A stretch of 64,000 bases of DNA from Calothrix sp. NIES-4105 (lineage in GTDB: Bacteria; Cyanobacteriota; Cyanobacteriia; Cyanobacteriales; Nostocaceae), in contig NZ_AP018290.1 of the NCBI RefSeq assembly GCF_002368415.1, positions 8,361,717 through 8,425,716 of the forward strand, given 5' to 3'. A model generated the notes under the pieces. The model was given only the letters and a program-made list of their open reading frames with translations, was not told where the DNA came from and did not search any database. Made by a program: the position numbers and the translations under genes. Below are positions 7,804 to 18,843 of the stretch, one piece after another; the stretch's first letter is position 1; every line of letters starts with the position of its first letter.

Positions 7804-9276
7804 ATGCGAATATTATTTGTAGCAGCAGAAGCGGCGCCGATAGCCAAAGTCGGAGGAATGGGGGATGTCGTCGGGGCATTGCCAAAAATTTTGAGACGAA
7901 TGGGGCATGATGTCAGGATATTTTTGCCTTATTACGGCTTTTTACCTGACAAAATGGAAATTCCATCTGAACCTGTTTGGAAAGGTTACGCCATGTTTCA
8001 AAACTTTCATGTTTATGAAAGCGTGTTACCTGGTACTGATGTTCCGTTATATTTATTTGGACATCCGGCTTTTGACCCTCGTCGTATTTATGCTGGCGAA
8101 GATGAAGCTTGGCGGTTTACTTTCTTTTCTAACGGCGCCGCAGAATTTTGTTGGAACTATTGGAAACCAGAAATTGTTCACTGTCACGATTGGCATACAG
8201 GCATGATACCCGTGTGGATGCACCAATCACCGGATATTAGTACTGTATTTACAATTCATAACCTTGCATATCAAGGCCCTTGGCGCGGTTACTTAGAGAA
8301 AGTAACTTGGTGTCCGTGGTACATGCAAGGGCATAATGTAATGGCGGCAGCAGTACAATTTGCCGATAGAGTAAATACTGTATCTCCAACTTATGCCGAG
8401 CAAATCCAAACAGCAGCTTACGGCGAAAAAATTGAAGGATTACTATCATTCGTTAGCGGTAAATTATCAGGTATTTTAAACGGTATAGATACTGAAGTTT
8501 TTGACCCAAACAAAGATAAATATATACCTCAAAACTTCACCCCCGAAACTTTAGATAAGCGCAAAGCAAATAAAGTTGGATTACAAGAAGAAGTTGGATT
8601 AGAGGTCAACAGCAATGCCTTTTTGATTGGTATGGTAACACGCTTAGTCGAGCAAAAAGGAATAGATATAGTATTACAAATCCTAGAAAGATTATTGTCT
8701 TATACTGATTCTCAAATAGTATTATTGGGTACAGGCGATAGAAATTATGAAAGCCAAATGTGGCAAATGGCATCGCGTTTTCCAGGACGGGTAGCAACAT
8801 ATTTACTCTACAACGATGCTTTAGCACGGCGTATTTATGCAGGTAGCGATGGGTTTTTGATGCCAAGTCGCTTTGAACCTTGCGGTATTAGTCAAATGAT
8901 GGCATTGCGCTACGGCTCGATTCCTATCGTTCGTCGTACAGGGGGATTAGTCGATACAGTACAACATCATGACCCAATAAATGGAGTTGGTACGGGTTAC
9001 TGTTTTGACCGCTATGAAGCATTAGATTTATATACTTGTTTAATCCGCGCGTGGGAAGGTTATCGCTACAAACCCCAATGGCAAGCACTACAGCAACGCG
9101 CGATGCATCAAGACTTTAGTTGGTACCAATCAGCAAAGCAATACGTTAAATTGTACCGCTCCATACTTGGTTTGCCCGAAGAAGAGGAACAAAACACAGA
9201 AGAACAAAACACAGAAAAGCAAACACAACTTGAAGTTGTAACCGACGTACTAGAACCAGTTGCTAGTCCCAGCTAG
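7804..9276 (+). CDS. glgA: Glycogen synthase (ADP-glucose type)
   Basis: A 490-residue GT5 glycosyltransferase that extends alpha-1,4-glucan chains with ADP-glucose. The ADP-glucose-binding [10 protein letters not shown] motif is at 15-24; other signatures are [41 protein letters not shown] and [17 protein letters not shown] containing the catalytic EX7E pair. The C-terminal tail ([15 protein letters not shown]) is a short acidic repeat, unlike the conserved core, and is probably disordered. The spacing from hemC is 94 bp, and no shared operon is obvious. Cyanobacteria often have two glgA genes; which one this is cannot be decided here. Confidence 0.95.
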
Positions 9277-9287
9277 TTAATACAAAA

Positions 9288-9320
9288 CTCTTGTGGAGCG
9301 GCTGTCCCCAGCCGCCCTGC
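9288..9320. repeat. TCTTGTGGAGCGG-type interspersed hairpin
   Basis: CTCTTGTGGAGCGGCTG pairs internally with CAGCCGC just after the glgA stop. Related sequences with the same CTCTTGTGG or CCACAAGAG end are at 20163-20233, 29073-29103, 30511-30539 and 44043-44072, so this is a dispersed family usually placed directly after genes. Confidence 0.7.
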
Positions 9321-9346
9321 TTATAAAAATTAGTCATGTATCTTTT

Positions 9347-9378
9347 CACCACAGAGACTCAGAGCGCACAGAGAGGGA
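9347..9378. repeat. CACCACAGAG-type interspersed repeat
   Basis: TTTTCACCACAGAGACTCAG with a following CACAGAG run. Similar blocks lie at 42119-42152, 53742-53777 (reverse) and 62214-62270 (reverse), marking another dispersed non-coding family. Confidence 0.65.
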
Positions 9379-9491
9379 AAAAAAGGCACCCCCAACCACC
9401 CCATAAATATCTATGCTTTTAGTTTTTTTGTACTATAGGGGCTGGATTTTAAGATATAATATCAAGTGAATTTATCAAATATTTCGTTGAT

Positions 9492-9719
9492 ATGCATCAA
9501 GTTGATATATCCCAAGCAACAAGCTCTCCTAAAAGCTTATTTCAAACAGCACTCGATGGTAACGAAGTTATTATTACCCAAGATAACGAACCGATTTTAA
9601 AAATAGTTCGTTTAAACCAGCCAAAAAAGCGGCGCCAAAGTGGAAGCGCTAAAGGTTTGATTTGGATGTCTGATGATTTTGATGCACCCCTAGAAGAACT
9701 TGGCGAGTATATGGAATGA
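9492..9719 (+). CDS. Phd/YefM-type antitoxin (VapB-like partner of a dead VapC)
   Basis: A 75-residue protein with the Phd fold signature: VDISQATSSPKSLFQTALDGNEVIITQDNEPILKIVRL, a DNA-binding dimer that represses its own operon, followed by a C-terminal toxin-neutralising tail (IWMSDDFDAPLEELGEYME). The stop overlaps the start of the next gene by 3 bases (9716-9719), the usual antitoxin-toxin coupling. The downstream PIN-domain toxin is broken, so the antitoxin is now orphaned at this locus and could still regulate or neutralise a related toxin elsewhere. Confidence 0.85.
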   Translation: MHQVDISQATSSPKSLFQTALDGNEVIITQDNEPILKIVRLNQPKKRRQSGSAKGLIWMSDDFDAPLEELGEYME

Positions 9720-9859
9720 GATTTCTAATTGATACTCACACATTTTTATGGTTTATTAATGGTAGTTCATAACTCAGTAGCAACGCTAAAAATTTGTTGG
9801 AATCAGATAATAACATTTGGATAAGTATTGTGAGTTTATGGGAAACTAGAATTTGGTAA
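9716..9859 (+). pseudogene. VapC-like PIN-domain toxin, remnant
   Basis: The start ATG at 9716 gives MRFLIDTHTFLWFING, the classic PIN-domain opening with its first acidic metal-binding Asp, but TAA at 9770-9772 stops it after 18 codons. The same frame continues for 28 codons (LSSNAKNLLESDNNIWISIVSLWE), clearly VapC sequence, then TRIW and a second stop at 9857. One sense-to-stop change plus loss of the rest of the gene makes the RNase inactive. About 90 expected residues are missing. Confidence 0.85.
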
Positions 9860-10004
9860 TCATTGGTGCAGTTTTAAGAGGCGCCGCAAAAAAATTTTAA
9901 AATGAGTGTGATTTTGGTGTGTTTTTTGGGAACCCTAAGTCCAGCAAGAGGTTTTGATAGAAATCGATTGCTTACTACAGTAAATACACATTGACAAGGA
10001 AATC

Positions 10005-10253
10005 ATGCCTAAACCAAGTTTTTCGACCAGTCGTAGCGCTAACCAAGTTGCACTTGAGACAGATGTAGCTATTGCAATAATTGGTATTTTTTCAGCGTTC
10101 GCAGATGAAGAAGGGTTGAGCCAAGAAGAAAGTGATGCTTTGTGTGAAATGCTTTCTAGCTCATCGGAATTTGAAGAATACTCCGAAGAAGACTTGCAAA
10201 GCTTAGTAGACTCAGCTATGGAAGTTTACTCAGGGAAGTCAAAACCAACGTAA
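10005..10253 (+). CDS. TerB-family protein, N-terminal half (split gene)
   Basis: An 82-residue ORF with a ribosome-binding site (AAGGAA) seven bases upstream of the ATG. It carries VAIAIIGIFSAFADEEGLSQEESDALCEML and YSEEDLQSLVDSAMEVYS, the first helical half of a TerB-like (tellurite-resistance family) domain with acidic loops. The usual second half, starting with an ...EG...A...L..REVAY...VV.VDGEV pattern, is absent; it is found at 15438-15719, beyond an integrase-bearing element. After MEVYS the six residues GKSKPT and stop appear to come from the inserted DNA. I infer one gene cut in two; the alternative is two unrelated short TerB-like genes. Confidence 0.7.
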   Translation: MPKPSFSTSRSANQVALETDVAIAIIGIFSAFADEEGLSQEESDALCEMLSSSSEFEEYSEEDLQSLVDSAMEVYSGKSKPT

Positions 10254-10360
10254 AATCAACACTTACAGCCACTAAACATAAAATAATGCTCAAAAACTGC
10301 TAAAAACCACTAAAACCACTACCTTTTTATAAGATTTACCAGAACATATGAACCAATTAT

Positions 10361-10380
10361 TGAACATCCAAGAATGTTCA
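10361..10380. promoter_or_regulatory. TGAACAT/ATGTTCA inverted repeat, possible integrase arm site
   Basis: TGAACAT at 10361 and ATGTTCA at 10374 form a 7-bp stem. The same heptamer recurs three times at the other end of the element (15396, 15408 and, inverted, 15439). A repeated short motif at both ends of an integrase element fits arm-type integrase binding sites. Confidence 0.4.
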
Positions 10381-10563
10381 CCGAATGCTCATTTTACCAT
10401 CCTATTAGCCAAAAGTGCTACAAATAGGGGTTTTTGTTAGACTCAAGTTAGCAAGCTGTTAAAAAATAACGTCAAAATGGTTGCTGTATAAGCAAAGTAA
10501 CGACCAGTAAGCGAATTTTTAAAACCATTTATATATTAAGTAAGTTTTTGTGAGGGTTTTAAG

Positions 10564-10578
10564 CTGGAATCGAACCAG
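10564..10578 (-). other. tRNA T-arm-like hairpin (no complete tRNA)
   Basis: On the minus strand CTGGTTCGATTCCAG has the T-loop TTCGATT in a 4-bp stem, with a D-arm-like TAGCTCGATTGG upstream. No anticodon arm or matching acceptor stem can be built, so this is at most a tRNA fragment or chance resemblance. Confidence 0.25.
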
Positions 10579-10702
10579 GTGGATTTTCCTTCCAATCGAG
10601 CTAGGCGCATCTCACCTCTAAAAACTATCCAAAAAATTCAACTCTATTTTCAAAAATTTGGGAAGGTCGAACGAAAGAATCAGGGGTCTAGCCATTAGAG
10701 GT

Positions 10703-10772
10703 AGGGTACCTATATGTTTAAAAAAAAAGATGGCATCTTTTATGCCATCTTTTAAAAAATATAAATAGATAC
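10703..10772 (-). terminator. Long hairpin terminator, element copy 1
   Basis: A near-perfect core stem AAAAGATGGCAT/ATGCCATCTTTT (10723-10757) sits inside a longer imperfect palindrome of about 70 bases. It lies just downstream of the minus-strand gene ending at 10826 and ends in a T run on that strand. A sister hairpin is at 13912-13981. Confidence 0.65.
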
Positions 10773-10825
10773 TCATCATGTGCGAAGCTAACTTTTTGTT
10801 TTGGGTACCCAAACATGCACCATAT

Positions 10826-10984
10826 TTACTTTCCTGCTGACTCTTGACTATTAAGCCATTCTTTAATTAATTCTCTAAGCTTTTCTCGATAGTCAGGTAT
10901 AGCCGTAAGCGCGTCGTAGTCGGCTTGTGTGAACCGAATACAGACTTGATGAGTTAGTGGATTATCTTTTTTTGGTATAGGCAT
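10826..10984 (-). CDS. Small ribbon-helix-helix-like protein (52 aa)
   Basis: Translation from the ATG at 10984 gives a 52-residue protein: a Lys-rich start (MPIPKKDNP), a likely beta strand HQVCIRFTQ, then DYDALTAIP and a helix REKLRELIKEWLNSQ. The strand-helix-helix order resembles small ribbon-helix-helix DNA-binding proteins of plasmids and mobile elements, which act as dimers. It reads away from the plus-strand gene at 11116, with a 12-bp inverted repeat between them that could be its operator. It is short and the family match is by pattern only. Confidence 0.55.
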   Translation of the reverse strand: MPIPKKDNPLTHQVCIRFTQADYDALTAIPDYREKLRELIKEWLNSQESAGK

Positions 10985-11040
10985 TGTAAAGTTTTGTAAC
11001 AATTAGTTGAAAGTATCTGGATTCATATATTTACATAAAA

Positions 11041-11082
11041 GGTAGGTAAGGAATCAAGTTTGGCGACTCCTCCTTACCTACC
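11041..11082. promoter_or_regulatory. Perfect inverted repeat in a divergent promoter region
   Basis: GGTAGGTAAGGA (11041-11052) and TCCTTACCTACC (11071-11082) are perfect reverse complements separated by 18 bases, extended by one A/T pair. The site lies between a leftward putative DNA-binding gene and a rightward gene, so it is a candidate operator, or an attenuator hairpin in the leader of the gene at 11116. Confidence 0.5.
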
Positions 11083-11115
11083 TATCTCGATAACCTGTAC
11101 CAAGACAATTCAATT

Positions 11116-11637
11116 ATGCATGAATTAGAGATGACCGTGTTAAAGCGTTCGCAATACCTAGCTGCTAGCCTGCTAGAACTTAAGGTTTTAGGGAAGCTGT
11201 ACGGTATTAAACCTGCTGGTAACGACAACTATAAAATTAATTGGGTAGATAACCTAGTTGCTTTTATGCCTCAGCCTGTACGTATCTGGAACTTAGGTTT
11301 TATCAGCAATGAATCTAAGCATTGCCTAGCCGAAGCATTGGATGGTTGCGATTTATTTACATCAGTGAATACTTTTAACCATCCATCAATCATGGAAAAA
11401 GCCATCATTGGTAGACTAATATTCTTTGGCTGTAACTGGAGAAGCGTTAGACGCTATGAGGTGAGTGATGAATACGATGAGCAGTTCCATGCTATTTATT
11501 CCACTATGCGTTTAGATGAGGAAGAGTTACTAAATAAATACTGGTCAATCTATCAAATCAAACAGATGAGTGTAGAGTTGCACTGGTTGTTTTCCAAGTA
11601 TTGGAGAGTAGATAAGCCTAACGACTCGATACAGTAA
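11116..11637 (+). CDS. Hypothetical protein of the integrative element
   Basis: A 173-residue protein with no signal peptide or membrane segment. It begins MHELEMTVLKRSQYLAASLLELKVLGKLYG, is rich in aromatic residues (Trp in at least five places) and ends in a charged, Trp-containing tail. I recognise no family. A strong rho-independent terminator follows ten bases after the stop, and a perfect inverted repeat lies upstream, so it appears to be a single-gene unit within the element. A role in element maintenance or defence is possible but not supported by any motif. Confidence 0.6.
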   Translation: MHELEMTVLKRSQYLAASLLELKVLGKLYGIKPAGNDNYKINWVDNLVAFMPQPVRIWNLGFISNESKHCLAEALDGCDLFTSVNTFNHPSIMEKAIIGRLIFFGCNWRSVRRYEVSDEYDEQFHAIYSTMRLDEEELLNKYWSIYQIKQMSVELHWLFSKYWRVDKPNDSIQ

Positions 11638-11646
11638 CTAAAAAAT

Positions 11647-11673
11647 AAAGGGGGTTATTACGCCCCCTTTTTT
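11647..11673 (+). terminator. Rho-independent terminator
   Basis: GGGGG and CCCCC separated by TTATTACG, preceded by AAA and followed by TTTTTTA, immediately after the gene ending at 11637. Confidence 0.85.
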
Positions 11674-11708
11674 ATTGCTTATTTTTATTAGTACTAATCA
11701 ACTAATTA

Positions 11709-12008
11709 TTAAAATGGTACATAAACTTCATCCTCTAGCTCTTCCATGAAACTCTCCCAATCACCCTGCACACTTTCACTTACCATCTGAATAGAACCTT
11801 TGTTAAGGTTAACCAATTGACTCATCATTAAATCAAAGTCAGTTACAGACATGTCTAGCTCTAAAGTTGAGAACTTGCTGTTGTAACAATCGTCAATACC
11901 AAATATCAACGTATCAATCGTATCTGTGAGTATTACATTAGTTCTAAGCGTTCTTAGATAAGGTATGAACTTTCTAGCGTTCTCGTAATCAATTTCTCTT
12001 TCAATCAT
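11709..12008 (-). CDS. Hypothetical small acidic protein, last gene of element operon
   Basis: A 99-residue acidic protein (MIEREIDYENARKFIPYLRTLRTN ... DLMMSQLVNLNKGSIQMVSESVQGDWESFMEELEDE). Its start shares one base with the stop of the upstream gene at 12008, so translation is coupled. The ending ...WESFMEELEDEVYV is similar in pattern to ...NWSKFLSDLGVEI of the preceding gene, suggesting the two are distant duplicates. Function unknown; the setting is a compact phage-like operon. Confidence 0.6.
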   Translation of the reverse strand: MIEREIDYENARKFIPYLRTLRTNVILTDTIDTLIFGIDDCYNSKFSTLELDMSVTDFDLMMSQLVNLNKGSIQMVSESVQGDWESFMEELEDEVYVPF

Positions 12009-12298
12009 TATATTTCAACTCCTAAATCAGACAAAAATTTACTCCAATTAGCATGTAAGACATACTCAATTATATGCATATACGATGTATCGATAATTCG
12101 CAAAAGCTCAAGTGTATATTTCCAATCTTCTATGCTTTTCTGAATTGTCAAAAAATCATCTCCATTATACTTCGCACTTCTAATATCTATTGCTAATGTT
12201 TCAAAATACCATTCATCATCATCAAGTGATAATTGTTGATATGTAATAAAATCACAAAACCGTAAAGCATTATTTAAGTCAATATTTTCTATAATCAT
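12008..12298 (-). CDS. Hypothetical small protein of element operon
   Basis: A 96-residue acidic protein starting MIIENIDLNNALRFCDFITYQQLSLDDDEWYFETL. It overlaps the upstream gene by four bases and the downstream gene by one. It shares general architecture (short N-terminal strand, helix, then a C-terminal W..FL..L ending) with the next gene, so I infer a tandem duplicate pair. No catalytic or DNA-binding motif is visible. Confidence 0.55.
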   Translation of the reverse strand: MIIENIDLNNALRFCDFITYQQLSLDDDEWYFETLAIDIRSAKYNGDDFLTIQKSIEDWKYTLELLRIIDTSYMHIIEYVLHANWSKFLSDLGVEI

Positions 12299-12579
12299 GC
12301 TGCTAACTCCTTTACAGTTTTAATTAATCTCTCAATAGTCAAAGTTTCAATATTACTAGAAAGATATTTTTTATCTCCCTTGCAATATATATAAACTCCT
12401 TTTGGGTACCTAGAAACACGCATTACTTTATCTTTATACAAGAGAGTAAAATAATCGTTGCTCTTCATCAAAAAAAACCACTCTTCACTATCAAAATAGA
12501 TATCAGTCCCTACCACTATCGCAGTTTTATTCTTAAAGTCGATATCTAAAACAATGGTTGTAGCTTGCACTTTTGTCAT
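12295..12579 (-). CDS. Hypothetical small protein of element operon
   Basis: A 94-residue protein predicted to be mostly beta strand (TTIVLDIDFKNKTAIVVGTDIYF ... YFTLLYKDKVMRVSRYPKGVYIYC) with a C-terminal helix ending TIERLIKTVKELAA. It overlaps both neighbours by four bases in ATGA fashion. The C-terminal helix resembles that of the next upstream gene (SIEMAVITLKELKLI), again hinting at duplication and divergence inside the operon. No known family recognised. Confidence 0.55.
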   Translation of the reverse strand: MTKVQATTIVLDIDFKNKTAIVVGTDIYFDSEEWFFLMKSNDYFTLLYKDKVMRVSRYPKGVYIYCKGDKKYLSSNIETLTIERLIKTVKELAA

Positions 12580-12932
12580 ATCAATTTTAACTCCTTTAAA
12601 GTTATTACTGCCATCTCAATAGAAGTCATACCTCTAAAGTCATTGATGTTCAATACTCTATTTTTACTACCTAAAAGTACTACACAGAAACTACCGTAGA
12701 TAGCATCACCATTTTTAAACCAACATATTGCATTAGTAGCTCTCTTGTCATAGATTACAGCTTTGCTTTGCCACCTCAATAAACCTGTAGCAATTTCAAG
12801 TTCTGCATTTTTGTCTAACTCAATTACATCTCTGATGTAATTAATATCCATATATTCAGGACAGTTAACAATGCATGGTGGCTCTTTGTTGACCATCTTT
12901 ACTAAATAACGCTCATTGTACTTTTTATTCAT
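12576..12932 (-). CDS. Hypothetical protein of element operon
   Basis: A 118-residue protein with mixed alpha/beta sequence (RYLVKMVNKEPPCIVNCPEYMDINYIRDVIELDKNAELEIATG in segments) and two Cys. It overlaps the upstream gene by eight bases and the downstream one by four. No motif that would assign a function was found. It belongs to the five-gene minus-strand operon of the integrative element. Confidence 0.55.
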   Translation of the reverse strand: MNKKYNERYLVKMVNKEPPCIVNCPEYMDINYIRDVIELDKNAELEIATGLLRWQSKAVIYDKRATNAICWFKNGDAIYGSFCVVLLGSKNRVLNINDFRGMTSIEMAVITLKELKLI

Positions 12933-13263
12933 CTTTTAATAACTTCCCTTCAAGATAATCAGCTATTTCTGAAAAATCTAAACATTGAACATCGTTTAGC
13001 TTCGCTATTTCATATGCTTCAGACATAGAAATTCCTATGTCTTGCATTACTTTTTCACATGGAAATTCATCGTCAAATGCACTTGTAAATTGATTTCTTT
13101 CTTTTGACTCTAGCCATACATCGCTTATGTTGCACTCTGGATGGATAGCAACTGCTACCCCTAAACAGCAATAGCAATTACCATCTTTTAGTTGATGCCT
13201 GCCTTGTATGTACTTATCACTACGTAAAGCTTCAACCCACTCTTTAACAAACTCTCTATTCAT
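12925..13263 (-). CDS. Phage-type hypothetical protein (LRSxKYxQG family)
   Basis: A 112-residue protein opening MNREFVKEWVEALRSDKYIQGRHQLKDGNCYCCLGVAVAI in segments. The W-x-ALRS-x-KY-x-QG...L...CCLGV pattern is a well-known small protein of tailed-phage genomes, of unknown function, which also has the late AKLNDVQCLDFSEIADYLE segment seen here. Its presence supports a phage or phage-satellite ancestry for the element. It is the first intact gene of the minus-strand operon and starts four bases after the stop of the broken gene upstream. Confidence 0.65.
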   Translation of the reverse strand: MNREFVKEWVEALRSDKYIQGRHQLKDGNCYCCLGVAVAIHPECNISDVWLESKERNQFTSAFDDEFPCEKVMQDIGISMSEAYEIAKLNDVQCLDFSEIADYLEGKLLKDE

Positions 13264-13267
13264 GTTT

Positions 13268-13680
13268 CTACCTCTGTTCCCAACCCTTAGTAGTTAACTT
13301 CCACCCTAAAGTATTCATTAACCTAGTGATATCTTTAGTCCTGGGCGTGATATCCAACTTCCCTTCATTCTGTAAAGTGCATAAATAATCCTTAACTTTC
13401 TGCGCTCCTATTATTATCTTCTGTGTTTGTAATCCACTAGAAACTAACAACTCATTAGCTTTTAACTGTGTCCCTGCTTCTTGTTCAATTAACTTATGTA
13501 AGTGTCCTATGGTAGCCGTTCCTTCTGCTAAGTAATTTGCATTGATGTAACTCCAATACTCCCCTAAGTGGTCTACCGCGTCTTGTATTGAACTCCATGT
13601 ACCTATAAGTAATCCAGTTACAACTAAATCTATACTTATAGTCCAATTAGCAGAAGTGAAGTTATCGAAGCTAAAGAGAA
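13268..13680 (-). pseudogene. 5'-truncated gene, C-terminal fragment
   Basis: The minus frame is open from about 13680 to the stop at 13268 and reads like a protein C-terminus (WSSIQDAVDHLGEYWSYINA ... KDITRLMNTLGWKL) but has no credible start; only TTG codons occur. The ending RTKDITRLMNTLGWK resembles the tail of phage/plasmid VapE-like or primase-helicase proteins, a weak match. The N-terminal part is missing at about 13.64 kb, where a second truncated gene begins on the other strand. Confidence 0.5.
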
Positions 13681-13801
13681 TGAAGCTTTAAATTTGAAGC
13701 AACTGTATGATGAATATGTAGCTAATGATATGGTTGAGGATGAAGCTTTGATGGAGATGTTCAACAACGCGCGGCAGGAGCTAGAAACTAAGAAGGGTTA
13801 G
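13643..13801 (+). pseudogene. 5'-truncated gene, C-terminal fragment
   Basis: The plus frame gives about 52 codons of charged helical protein (SRSEVIEAKENEALNLKQLY ... MEMFNNARQELETKKG) ending in TAG. There is no start codon in a suitable place and the frame closes just upstream at 13625. It diverges from the minus-strand fragment, and both lack N-termini at the same point, suggesting a deletion that removed their shared upstream region. Confidence 0.45.
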
Positions 13802-13911
13802 GCTTGGCATATCACAAGGAGTGTTGTTTGAGGGAGTTTAATAGACTCTCTCATTTTTTTATGTGTATATGTAGAACTTATCAATTGAGGGTAGCTTAGG
13901 GGTGATAGGTT

Positions 13912-13981
13912 GGGTATGTATATGTTTAAAAAAATAGATGGCGTGATTGTCGCCATCTATTAAAAAATATATACACATACT
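13912..13981 (-). terminator. Long hairpin terminator, element copy 2
   Basis: Core AATAGATGGCG/CGCCATCTATT (13926-13966) in a 70-base imperfect palindrome with A and T runs on both sides, downstream of the integrase stop. Its flanks (TATATGTTTAAAAAAA) match the hairpin at 10703-10772, so the element carries two copies of one terminator type. Confidence 0.65.
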
Positions 13982-14029
13982 CTAAGCTATAGGGGTAAAA
14001 ACCCTATTACAGCCATTGATTGATAAGGA

Positions 14030-15403
14030 CTACTTATTCCCTTTTTCTAATTGTTCTAGCCTCCTAAGTAACTCCGCGTTCTGTTCTTTCAGTAAATCTA
14101 TCTCTGATTTAACTTGATTGTTATTAGCTGGTAAGTCAGGGTTAGCTTGCATAGCGTATGAAGAAACGTCTCTATAGTGCTTACGACTAACTGCTTCACT
14201 GTGTTCACACCATGCGTTTACTATCTCTGGTTCTCTGCCTAGGTCGAATATTTGGTGAGTTACGAAAGTATGACGGCAATTGTAAAAAGGGAAATGTTGC
14301 TTAAGCTTCCCTTGTTTGATTAGCTCTGGAATTACTCCTTTATTCCGATTGTATTTGTTGCCATTCCAAAATTGGTCAACAGAGCTTTTGTTGAATTTTT
14401 TACCCATTTTAGTTTTAAACACGCATTCATTCGGTTCACCTTCTGGTAGCTCTTTAAGTAAGTTCCATAACTCACCATTCTTAGGCATCGGGAATATACG
14501 TTTAGTTCCATTCTTTGTATCTTTGAATTTTTTTACACTACTTGCATAGCTACGGCGGATATATATACACTCGTTCTCCCATTTAACATCAGTCCACCAT
14601 AAACCGTAAGCTTCACCCGGTCTACAACCTGTTAAAAACCTAAAACTAACGATATGGTACCAGCGTGAAATAGTAAGACTGTTCTTTATGTATTCTCTAA
14701 TTAGCAATGACTCATTCCAGTCATAACACTTAGTTTTATCTAATACATCTGTATCATCATCTATTTCATCATCTTGACTATAAGTTTTATTTGGTTTTTT
14801 TAACTCAATATCCTTATGTAAATCTAAAAAAGGATTATGAGTTACTAAATTTTGCTTAATCGCTAGTTGGTATGCACTATCTAAAGCTGATAAAGTTGAT
14901 TTCGCAGTAAGACCGCATTTATTTTCTATTAACCAGTTAAAAATTTTAACTGCATTATCTTCAGTACCAACCAGCGCTTGCTTAATGGCTCGATAGTATG
15001 TTCCGTTGTATTTATCGTGATAGGTCGTTACAGCTAAATTCTTTTCTCTGTATTCACAGTACATTTCATATATCTCAAGAGTTGAGAGTTGAGGTTTCTT
15101 GTTACCAGAATCACTAATACCGACAAAGTTGGTACTTTCTAAATTTTTAACTTTCTTATTTATTCCATATTTCTCTAAACTTCTATCAAAACAACCATCT
15201 TCTAAATCTAACTGCATCCTATCTGCTATCCTATTAGCCCTAGCCCAGTTAATCTCGTTATCCTCCATGTTTAGAGCATACCTAGGTTGTTCATCGGTAA
15301 AATATTGTCTAGGTAGTCTAACTTTTAGTCTTCCGTTCTCTGGATATACTGATACTCTGCCTTTTTTGCCTTTTTTATTTTCTTTGCTTTGCATAATGTT
15401 CAA
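14030..15403 (-). CDS. Tyrosine site-specific integrase
   Basis: A 457-residue phage-type integrase. An N-terminal arm-binding domain (about 14-80: GRVSVYPENGRLKVRLPRQYF ... DLEDGCFDRSLEKYG in pieces) has the pattern of the DUF3596 class; a core-binding helical domain follows (100-190) and the catalytic domain occupies 225-415. Catalytic residues: Arg261 in TGCRPGEAYGL, Lys301 in the beta hairpin, Tyr374-x-x-Arg377 (YNCRHT; Tyr replaces the commoner His), His401 and nucleophile Tyr410 (KHYRD). A Leu-rich helix ends the protein. It would integrate and excise the 5.25-kb element. It transcribes away from the adjacent right end, with ATGTTCA repeats upstream that may be binding or autoregulatory sites. 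Confidence 0.92.
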   Translation of the reverse strand: MNIMQSKENKKGKKGRVSVYPENGRLKVRLPRQYFTDEQPRYALNMEDNEINWARANRIADRMQLDLEDGCFDRSLEKYGINKKVKNLESTNFVGISDSGNKKPQLSTLEIYEMYCEYREKNLAVTTYHDKYNGTYYRAIKQALVGTEDNAVKIFNWLIENKCGLTAKSTLSALDSAYQLAIKQNLVTHNPFLDLHKDIELKKPNKTYSQDDEIDDDTDVLDKTKCYDWNESLLIREYIKNSLTISRWYHIVSFRFLTGCRPGEAYGLWWTDVKWENECIYIRRSYASSVKKFKDTKNGTKRIFPMPKNGELWNLLKELPEGEPNECVFKTKMGKKFNKSSVDQFWNGNKYNRNKGVIPELIKQGKLKQHFPFYNCRHTFVTHQIFDLGREPEIVNAWCEHSEAVSRKHYRDVSSYAMQANPDLPANNNQVKSEIDLLKEQNAELLRRLEQLEKGNK

Positions 15404-15448
15404 AAGATGTTCAAAAGTGGATATACCTTTTTAGGTAATGAACATTAT
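15393..15448. promoter_or_regulatory. ATGTTCA repeats upstream of the integrase
   Basis: ATAATGTTCA (15393-15402) and TGAACATTAT (15439-15448) are perfect reverse complements, with a third direct copy ATGTTCA at 15408. The array covers the integrase start and the start of the following gene, so it may serve as arm-type recombination site and operator. Confidence 0.45.
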
Positions 15449-15719
15449 ACAGGAAAAATCAATGCAATTACTCTCTACTCAACAAGAAGGTGTTGCAGGT
15501 GCAATGGAACTAGCAATTGCATCGTTAGATAGCAAAGAAGATAGAGAAGTTGCCTATATCACTGCAGTTTGTGTTGTAGCAGTTGATGGTGAAGTTCCGT
15601 CGAACGAAGAAGAGTATCTCAACGACCTTCAAAAAGCTTTAAAGATTTCTGACGAACGCGCGTCTGAAATTATAGATGAATTGTTCGCAGAAGAGGAATA
15701 CGAAGAAGAGGAAGAATAA
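15438..15719 (+). CDS. TerB-family protein, C-terminal half (split gene)
   Basis: A 93-codon ORF; the conserved part starts near residue 16 with QEGVAGAMELAIASLDSKED, continues REVAYITAVCVVAVDGEVPS and ends ALKISDERASEIIDELFAEEEY. This is the second half of a TerB-type domain, including the VDGEV metal-loop-like segment. The first half is at 10005-10253; placing MEVYS before QEGVAG restores a normal single domain of about 160 residues. The first 15 residues (MNIIQEKSMQLLSTQ) appear to be element-derived. It could be translated alone from 15438 or 15462, but is then only half a domain. Confidence 0.7.
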   Translation: MNIIQEKSMQLLSTQQEGVAGAMELAIASLDSKEDREVAYITAVCVVAVDGEVPSNEEEYLNDLQKALKISDERASEIIDELFAEEEYEEEEE

Positions 15720-16026
15720 AACCAATATAATTATTTCATAATGTAGAGACGCTCCGGTTCAGGAGCGTCTCTGCCGGAGCGCGCATTTTACAAATGATTT
15801 AGAACTGCTATATATATTCATTCCACATTCAACAAAGTAATTATTTGATGCTGGTGTGGCGCCTTTGTCTTTTCTAGAATAGGTACTGCATCACCTCAAA
15901 TCAATATGCATCTTGTGGCAGTTCACTTCCCTTTGCCACAAGTTTTGTATTTATGTTGAACAATGAATTTTTAACTGTAACTAAGGGAACTATATACTTG
16001 GTAACACCAAAATCTTTTCCTGAGTT
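15720..16026. other. Non-coding interval with a GTAGAGACG repeat
   Basis: A palindromic repeat GTAGAGACGCTCC...GGAGCGTCTC lies at 15743-15772, probably ending the TerB gene transcript. The rest is AT-rich promoter-side sequence for the kinase operon; no gene is evident. Confidence 0.6.
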
Positions 16027-18843
16027 ATGGAATTCCTACCCAACCAAGCTAATCACAACAGTAAGTCAAAAAAATTACCTCTACGGCTTATACTTGTAGT
16101 TCCCTTCGTCCTACAAATTTTTGCAGCGGTAGGATTGACAGGATACTTATCACTGCGTAACGGACGGCAAGCAGTTAATCAGCTTGCAACAAAACTAAGT
16201 GAAGAAGTTAGTTCGCGTATCAACCAACATCTAGATAATTATTTAGACACTGCTCGCCATCTTGCCCAAATCAATGGAGATGCAATTGACTTGGGATTAT
16301 TAGAAATACAAAATCAAGAAAAGATGGGGCATTACTTCTGGAAGCAAGTGCATTTGTACAACGTAGGTTATATTAGCTTTGGAACTCCAACAAATGAATT
16401 TACAGGCGCCGGATATTATATAGACCCAAATAAAATAATTGTTAACGCAACATCTCCGAAGAAACAAAATAATAGAGATAACTACCTTTACGAAACTGAC
16501 TCTGAAGGAAATCGTACTAAGCTGGCTGACATCTTTAAAAATTATGAATTTGAGAAGGAACCTTGGTATGCACAAACAGTCCAAGCGGGTAAACCAATGT
16601 GGAGTCCAGTTTACCAGTGGGAAATAGCTCCCTTTCCTCTAGCAATTTCTGCTAACCGTCCTGTCTACGATAAGAATAATAACCTAATTGGAGTAATTGG
16701 CATTGACCAGCGCTTAACACAAATCAGAGATTTTCTACGCCAATTAAAAGTTAGCTCCGAAGGAAAAACTTTTATTTTAGAACGTAACGGGTTACTGGTA
16801 GCAACATCAAGTCAAGAAGAGCCGTTTAAGATTACTGATGGCAAACCAAAAAGACTTTTAGTTATAAATAGTAATGACATTTTAATTCAATCTACAGCTA
16901 AATATTTGCAACAGCATTTTGCTAATTTTAATCAAATTAAGAATACACAACATCTTGAGTTTATCCATGATGGTCAGCGGCAGTTCGTCCAAGTTACTCC
17001 TTGGCGTGATGACTGGGGATTAGATTGGCTAGTAGTAGTTGCCGTTCCGGAATCTGATTTTATGGCACAAATCAACGCCAATACCCGCACTACAATTATG
17101 CTGTGTCTTGGCGCCTTAGTGCTGGCAACTATCTTAGGTATTTACACATCGCGTTGGATTGCCCGTCCGATATTAGTTTTGAATACTGCATCGGAAGCTA
17201 TAGCTAGCGGTAAACTTAACCAACAAGTTTCGGAGTCGAATGTAAATGAACTTGGTATGTTAGCACAATCATTTAACCGTATGGCACAGCAGTTGCGCGA
17301 TTCGTTTACAGCACTAGAAACAACGAATCAACAACTCGAAAAAACTAACCTGGAATTAGAAACACGGGTAGAGGAACGTACACAACAATTACAAACAGCC
17401 AAAGAAGTTGCAGACAATGCGAATAGAGCCAAAAGTGAGTTTCTCGCAAACATGAGTCATGAGTTGCGAACTCCTCTCAATGGCATTCTTGGTTATTCTC
17501 AAATTCTACGACGTTCGGAACCTTTAACTGACAGTGGAAATAAAGGTGTTGAAATTATCCATCAATGTGCTTCGCATTTACTAACTCTCATCAACGATAT
17601 TCTTGACCTTTCTAAAATCGAAGCGCGCAAAATGGAATTGCACCCGATAGATTTTCATTTCCTGTCTTTTTTGGAAGGAGTTGCCGAAATTTGCCGCGTT
17701 CGAGCAGAGCAAAAAGGTATTGCTTTTATTTATCAGCCAGATGCACGATTACCAATTGGTTTACGCGCGGATGAAAAACGATTGCGTCAAGTTTTAATTA
17801 ACCTGCTAGGTAATGCGATTAAATTTACCGACTCTGGAGGAGTTACTTTTAAAATAGATGTTATTGACCCCTCTCCAAACTTCTCCCCTGAAAGAAGAGA
17901 GGATTTAGATGAAAAGAGAAACTTCAAACTTCGCTTTGAAATTAAAGATACTGGTGTTGGGATGTCACCCGAACAATTAGAAAAGATTTTCTTACCCTTT
18001 GAACAAGTCGGTGATACTAAAAAACAATCCGAAGGTACAGGTTTGGGGTTAGCTATCAGCTTAAAAATTATCTCGTTGATGAGTAGTAAAATCGAAGTTG
18101 AAAGTACACCTTCAAAAGGCAGTACCTTTTGGTTTGACGTTGAGTTACCGGAAGCACCTAATTGGGCAGAAACTAGTAGAGTGGCGCCGCAAGGTAGAAT
18201 TGTTGGATATAAAGGAGAAAAGCAAAAAATCCTCGTTGTTGATGACAAGTGGGAAAATCGTTCGGTAATTGTTAATTTGCTTCAACCTATTGGTTTTTAT
18301 TTAGCAGAAGCAGCTAACGGTCAAGAAGGATTAGAAAAATCAAATCAATTGGCGCCTGATTTAATCATTACCGATTTAGTAATGCCTGTGATGCACGGAT
18401 TTGACCTAATAAAAAATCTACGGTCAGATGAAACATTAAACAATATTATAATTATAGCTTCCTCAGCTAGTGTTTTTGAAATCGACCAATATAAAAGCTT
18501 AGATGCAGGTGCGAATGCATTTTTACCCAAACCAGTGCAAATCGAAGCTTTGCTCGAACTAATTGGTAAACATTTATTAATTGAATGGGTATATCAAGAT
18601 GTTACTGATACTAAAAAGACTCAAACACAAACTCAATCTGATACCATCATCCTACCGTCAGAGGAGATATTAATAAACTTATATAATATAGCAAAACAAG
18701 GTGATGTATATAAAATTATTGACGAAGCAAATCAATTAAAACAAATCGATGAGAATTTGGCGCCTTTTGCCCAAAAAATAATAGTATTAGCAGAAAACTT
18801 TCAAATCAAACCTTTGTGGGAATATATTGGAAAATTTATTTAG
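16027..18843 (+). CDS. Hybrid sensor histidine kinase (Cache-HAMP-HisKA-HATPase-REC)
   Basis: A 938-residue membrane sensor. A transmembrane helix at about 21-43 is followed by a double-Cache periplasmic sensor (about 45-350), a second membrane helix (about 357-378) and HAMP ([20 protein letters not shown]). A coiled linker leads to HisKA with His478 in [11 protein letters not shown], and a HATPase with NAIKFT, DTGVGM and GTGLGLAI boxes. A receiver domain follows with acidic VDD and phospho-acceptor Asp783 in TDLVMP. The last ~85 residues are helical without a phosphotransfer His. The next gene, 24 bp downstream, encodes a receiver-kinase, so the pair is probably an operon and phosphorelay. 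The ligand is unknown; Cache domains usually bind small metabolites. Confidence 0.93.

Follow-up and report, generated by a model that had tools for sequence, protein, structure and literature searches.

A TerB-like gene split by an integrase-bearing element, an apparent deletion derivative of larger phage-like relatives, in Calothrix sp. NIES-4105

A TerB-like gene in two parts and the foreign element between them

We analysed a 64,000-nucleotide stretch of the genome of the cyanobacterium Calothrix sp. NIES-4105 (NCBI RefSeq assembly GCF_002368415.1, contig NZ_AP018290.1, positions 8,361,717 to 8,425,716 of the forward strand; hereafter the window), in which a gene for a TerB-like protein lies in two parts on either side of an element that carries a tyrosine integrase (Table 1). 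An earlier note on this DNA had proposed that the open reading frames (ORFs) at 10005-10253 and 15438-15719 are halves of a single TerB-family gene, and this is what we find: the two ORFs are the two ends of one gene of about 154 aa. When the halves were joined as a chimera and compared with the database, single proteins of 150-157 aa were recovered (P0001-P0011; 69-92% identity, 88-95% query coverage). A search of 192 family genomes, including 6 other genomes of the same genus, identified one open frame with 68-93% identity to the chimera in five of these six (G030, G076, G127, G138 and G101), while the sixth (G115) holds only a 51% relative. The outcomes that the note had named as fatal to its proposal, relatives that encode the halves as separate genes or the lack of any joined homologue, were thus not what the genus relatives present. 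The genome of the strain itself (12.04 Mb, 8 contigs) contains both halves and one remote paralogue (33%).

The limits of the split are sharp. Homology on the left stops at the codon TAC at 10227-10229 (...AMEVY) and restarts on the right at the CAA at 15483 (QEGVAG...). Three of the five intact genus copies read GTT TAC GAG CAA GAG GGT across the joint, and the other two use different codons over an equal length. Since both halves offer a possible start codon and end in a stop, the two could in principle be separate genes, or could have been split before an element came to lie next to them by chance. That reading is hardly credible, given the single ORF in five of the six genus relatives and the position of the extra codons of both halves, which lie in the attachment region of the element and can be aligned with the attachment regions of its relatives. 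As a separate observation, Dulcicalothrix desertica PCC 7102 (G127, L006), whose TerB-like gene is intact, has GAGCACTCAGGT exactly at the joint, where the window element has TACTCAGGG, which is perhaps chance.

The intact homologues sit around the Pfam cut-off for TerB-like proteins (PF05099, 24.4 bits), which was reached by four of the seven scanned (P0001, 24.4; P0011, 28.5; P0016, 25.2; P0017, 25.7), with P0003, P0010 and P0012 falling below it. The right half alone scored 16.2 bits and the left half gave no match. The best match of a model of P0001 (mean pLDDT 74.9) to a solved fold was the TerB-like protein 2ou3 from Nostoc punctiforme (Foldseek E 0.071, probability 1.00, TM 0.50), to which the sequence profile was also weakly matched (E 0.044). 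Unlike in such proteins, the gene in the window is cut inside the longest predicted helix (residues 61-90 of P0001), so neither half should fold alone.

The DNA between the two halves is foreign, as judged from its G+C content (34.6% versus 40.6%) and from the absence of the palindrome GGCGCC, which the earlier note had already pointed out. No copy is found in 10227-15481 (5,255 bp), against 8.2 predicted from the remainder of the window, and none of 268 stretches of the same length elsewhere in the window is free of it; its absence therefore marks an inserted element in a GGCGCC-rich window. Outside 10227-15481 the palindrome is over-represented, with 92 copies (1.57 per kb), and GCGATCGC occurs once. 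We found no tRNA genes in the window and no Rfam matches in 9000-17000.

The tyrosine integrase that the note had placed at one edge is confirmed by its matches to PF00589 (8.1e-10) and phrog_1 (2.8e-26), with no family assigned by NCBIfam, and is encoded on the minus strand at the element's right edge. The note had also described the small genes as phage-like; among the small ORFs scanned, that at 12925-13263 gave the one clear PHROG match (phrog_18067, function unknown; 5.4e-17). Database clusters list 3 contigs for the right half of the gene and 2 for the integrase, which are not necessarily independent assemblies.

Table 1 Features of the split gene and of the element (window coordinates)
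Feature	Position	Strand	Remarks
5' part of TerB-like gene	10005..10229	+	75 codons; ORF runs on to 10253 via element-derived codons
3' part of TerB-like gene	15483..15719	+	QEGVAG... to stop; ORF codons 15438-15482 element-derived or junction
Integrated element	10227..15475		5,249 bp core to core
Core, left copy	10227..10232	+	TACTCA
Core, right copy	15476..15481	+	TACTCA; base 15482 is extra relative to orthologues
Left arm	10286..10391	+	ATGYTCA repeats at 10286, 10374, 10385
Paired arm-type repeats, integrase edge	15396..15413	+	ATGTTCA, 11 bp apart
Tyrosine integrase	14030..15394	-	454 aa from ATG 15394; TTG at 15403 alternative start
Small basic ORF	10826..11002	-	58 aa; relatives in both larger elements
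ORF	11116..11637	+	173 aa; relatives in both larger elements
Five small ORFs	11709..13263	-	99, 96, 94, 118, 112 aa; relatives in left modules of both larger elements
Gene remnant	13268..13657	-	C-terminal part of 416-aa gene whole in PCC 7102
Deletion scar	13650..13673		Left module joined to integrase module of larger relatives
Gene remnant	13673..13801	+	C-terminal part of 84-aa gene whole in PCC 7102 and PCC 7716

Larger relatives, the core site and the missing middle

The window integrase is 70% identical to one in Calothrix sp. PCC 7716 and 67-68% identical in D. desertica PCC 7102, and both belong to larger elements. The PCC 7102 element (C5:355612-378646; L046, L093 and L094) spans 23,034 bp, has an exact 24-bp repeat at its edges and lies inside an epimerase gene, whose N-terminal part can be matched up to C5:355,638 and the remainder from 378,670 onwards. 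The edges of the PCC 7716 element (L045 and L095) are 21,362 bp apart and have 18 of 19 bases in common. Its integrase edge lies within an SDR gene that retains roughly its last 39 residues; the other part of this gene was not found in the PCC 7716 genome. The window element shares with these two its integrase, its arms, a left module at the matching end, the attP span described below and an integrase edge in coding sequence, and so belongs to the same lineage. It differs from them in its size (they are 21-23 kb long), in its target gene and in lacking the lysis and other middle genes that they possess.

Both larger elements encode an endolysin (in PCC 7102 matching phrog_435 at 4.4e-48 and Amidase_3 at 2.3e-29). 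Because this is the only one of the 19 proteins scanned from the two elements, some of them homologous pairs, that matches a PHROG of known function, calling them phage-like rests on the integrase and the endolysin. Their 676-aa and 203-aa proteins had no match in 50,697 phage records. For their beta-rich protein of 268 aa, relatives occur in 49 of the 192 family genomes, and a model of it (mean pLDDT 81.4) gave weak fold matches over its whole length and a part of ~90-106 residues like small, mostly uncharacterised phage proteins; we do not claim a capsid or tail role for it. Relatives of the integrase were found in no viral contigs, and four phage records hold distant integrases (25-26% identity). 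The PCC 7102 and PCC 7716 elements seem to represent a widespread and apparently undescribed lineage, no description of which was met among the literature records listed.

The attachment arms are conserved in this lineage. We inspected 26 loci of the integrase family, in 25 of which the integrase frame was found by script; 19 of these 25 carry, at their integrase edge, a pair of ATGYTCA repeats 11 bp apart, and 14 of the 25 have CATTRTA beyond them. TACTCA, which the earlier note had put forward as a candidate, has no significance as a bare 6-mer, and the longest word common to the 60-nt edges is another one, an 8-mer, a word length that 31 of 500 shuffles also attained. If the element ends are joined at TACTCA, however, the resulting attP has 56 nt between ATTATA and ACG, and the same 56 nt separate these landmarks in the attP sites of PCC 7102 and PCC 7716, rebuilt by joining at their own repeats. 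Among six joins tried in the window, TACTCA alone gave 56. TTACTC (10226 / 15468) gave 49 and the imperfect pair GGGAAGTCA / GGAAAAATCA gave 26, whereas the 10-bp repeat TACCTTTTTA (10320 / 15424), the 8-mer AAAATCAA (10252 / 15455) and TCAACA (10256 / 15479) each exclude ATTATA, ACG or both from the element. We rejected these five and take TACTCA, an exact direct repeat of only 6 bp whose placement is backed by the attP span, to be the correct core. Because this span equals that of the relatives, both ends of the element are of normal length; the extra base 15482 lies on the host side of the right edge. The note had asked for the core, or its reading of one edge, to be checked: the core stands and the one-base shift is real.

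Alignment with the larger elements also shows what is missing. Positions 10240-13657 (the left module) align to their integrase-distal ends and positions 13673-15465 (the integrase module) to their integrase ends, while a blastn comparison of their middles with the window returned no more than short matches (28-57 bp). Projected onto PCC 7102, the stretch lost runs from about C5:357,801 to 371,941, ~14.1 kb that include the endolysin; the difference in total length exceeds this because the left module of PCC 7102 also holds repeated copies. The window element is accordingly a deletion derivative of larger phage-like kin. Independently of this, related small ORFs of ~95-110 aa recur within left modules (L094:4047-6191; window 11709-12298), and several window ORFs match multiple sites.

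What excision would leave, and competing explanations

When the host flanks are joined at TACTCA, the frame is shifted by +1 and ends at a stop after 92 aa. None of 20 aligned homologues has an insertion or deletion at this joint, and excision with the present edges would not mend the TerB-like gene. The same operation in PCC 7102 gives a 320-aa epimerase that is 92% identical, ungapped, over 319 residues to an intact homologue, so that there, unlike in the window, the junction is exact and in frame. The rejected pair GGGAAGTCA / GGAAAAATCA would give an in-frame join in the window, yet with added residues at the joint that are found in 0 of the 20 homologues.

Neither half of the gene shows relaxed selection. 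Their dN/dS values against G030, G076 and G138 are 0.09-0.20, compared with 0.19-0.25 among those three intact copies, and against the more distant G101 they are 0.12-0.15, compared with 0.12-0.20 for intact pairs (G127 was not included in this count). Either the break is therefore recent or the gene is still in use. The TerB-like family appears to have suffered repeated loss: homologues with 44-57% identity, perhaps a paralogous group, are truncated or contain stops in G119 (C38, L052), G105 (C42, L053) and G012 (C39, L054), and tblastn with the integrase found no integrase in the 14-18-kb stretches around them. Because the homologues are broken there, the family would be dispensable at least in these three genomes.

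We consider it highly probable that the window holds a prophage-derived, gene-interrupting element that has lost its middle, and that the TerB-like gene has most likely simply been inactivated, recently. In such a course of events, a phage-like element of a lineage with conserved arms (paired ATGYTCA repeats) and a core that differs in each element would have inserted, through its tyrosine integrase, at TACTCA in codons 75-76 of the TerB-like gene of a Calothrix-type cyanobacterium. The middle, which measures ~14 kb on the map of PCC 7102, would have been lost during or following integration, seemingly in one deletion, leaving 5.2 kb with the left module, the integrase and both attachment edges. 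Because the integrase frame is whole, excision may still occur, and would leave the frameshifted 92-residue product. That the inactivation is recent is suggested by the unrelaxed selection on both halves.

Several points weigh against this account. The element is known from assembled sequence, with no excised or circular DNA observed, and the extra base 15482 is possibly an assembly error. The dN/dS values would equally be expected of a gene still in use. The window repeat is 6 bp long, as against 24 exact bases in PCC 7102 and 18 of 19 in PCC 7716. The phage nature of the larger elements is supported by an integrase and an endolysin, and the PCC 7102 contig contains runs of N (10-68 bases) and, close to the edge, an incomplete duplicate of the integrase start.

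The layout of the locus had suggested to the earlier note the elements that interrupt nifD, fdxN and hupL in heterocystous cyanobacteria. In the programmed developmental version of this idea, the integrase would excise the element in a particular cell type, the heterocyst or another, and so restore the TerB-like gene. The resemblance in layout is real: as with the nifD/XisA, hupL/XisC and fdxN/XisF elements described in a published survey (PMC4874684), an element flanked by direct repeats lies in a coding gene of the Nostocales, between parts of a gene that is whole in relatives, and carries close to one edge a recombinase oriented against the gene. The position of the integrase, near the 3' edge, is the usual one for oppositely oriented xis genes, of which 69 of 70 are reported in the survey to lie near the element's end. 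Also in keeping with a developmental element are the integrase frame, intact though the middle of the element has gone, the purifying selection on both halves, and the PCC 7102 relative, which would restore its host gene exactly. What did not stand is excision that mends the gene, since the joined flanks encode 92 aa and a stop, unlike those of the nifD, hupL and fdxN elements. Further, the survey counts 101 interruption elements, distributed over 22 orthologues, and a further three in non-heterocystous cyanobacteria; its table gives no entry the name TerB, some entries bearing only the label hypothetical. Tyrosine recombinases are found there in six ortholog groups, and the interrupted genes without a known nitrogen-fixation role, the kind to which the window's host gene belongs, all had serine-recombinase elements (PMC4874684). 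The closest kin of the window element are phage-like elements in genes without a known nitrogen-fixation role, and the TerB-like homologues broken without a nearby integrase also speak against a developmental switch. We therefore regard this reading as very unlikely. Programmed developmental excision is not supported in the window, which falls outside the class of interruption elements whose excision restores the gene; the element may have had such a function earlier, or its PCC 7102 sibling may have it now. NtcA-like GTAN8TAC sites number 0 in 15301-15600 and 13 in the window.

A second alternative is active lysogeny, in which the element would move in and out reversibly, outside any developmental programme, in a share of cells. 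Prophages or prophage-like elements that interrupt coding genes, as in the window, include SPbeta in spsM and skin in sigK of Bacillus, where excision has reportedly been observed to restore the gene; by comparison, the window frame is not restored and its element is known from sequence alone. The uninterrupted window integrase, which carries motifs that we take to be catalytic, the arm repeats on both sides and the PCC 7102 sibling with its exact in-frame repeat, whose excision would restore its host gene, are consistent with this possibility. The broken frame in the window argues against it, as do the lack of an identified directionality factor in the element and of any further close copy of the integrase within the strain's own genome, where the next match is 28% identical. 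We judge active lysogeny to be very unlikely.

Other loci of the integrase family

Integrases of the same family were found, at E <= 1e-40, in 32 of the 192 family genomes. Among the loci inspected, the integrase edge cuts coding sequence in three, namely the TerB-like, SDR and epimerase genes, and by Pfam coordinates three more genes are truncated at this edge: FMN reductase (L105, G118), KptA (L114, G151) and DUF4058 (L112, G188). A MarR-like gene (L106, G045) has no Pfam match and was judged by eye to be cut. These four are candidate interrupted genes. A transporter neighbour at L104 was left out of the count because this locus has lost the integrase start itself. The remaining loci inspected show no cut gene at the integrase edge, though some edges lie near gene ends, and at L103 a tRNA-Pro lies ~200 bp from it.

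A broader reading, possible but doubtful, is that the window captures a prophage in transition to a small gene-interruption element, in a Nostocaceae lineage with conserved arms and a variable core of ~20-24 nt; because the core differs, siblings would lodge in different coding genes (TerB-like, epimerase and SDR, with FMN reductase, KptA and DUF4058 as candidates). If true, elements of this kind could work as switches of their host genes, the insertion in at least one member, PCC 7102, being seamlessly reversible as read from its sequence, and the window member would be such an element that has shed its phage genes. The lineage also directs attention to host genes that lie beyond nitrogen fixation. 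Interruption elements have been hypothesised to derive from phages, with changes over time said to make tracing them to their origin difficult (PMC4874684). A short element that retains little besides its integrase and left module, present in one genus together with longer phage-like siblings that share its arms and attP span, makes that origin traceable. The PCC 7102 epimerase, with its 24-bp exact repeat and in-frame junction, is a clean test case for reversible interruption.

The 30 best-scoring loci for PF00148 appear to be of the ChlB type. Around nifK, which is present in 39 of 39 genomes, no integrase lies within flanks of ~1.5 kb in 30 loci among the matches listed. The nifK gene of G159 was matched in two pieces ~100 kb apart (C66:41931-43208, profile 1-431; C66:143464-143727, profile 428-516), a pattern suggestive of an interrupting element of ~100 kb. 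Upstream of the split TerB-like gene, in 9492-9860, a small antitoxin-like ORF (9492-9719) is followed by a stop-interrupted toxin-like frame, apparently a decayed pair as judged by eye.

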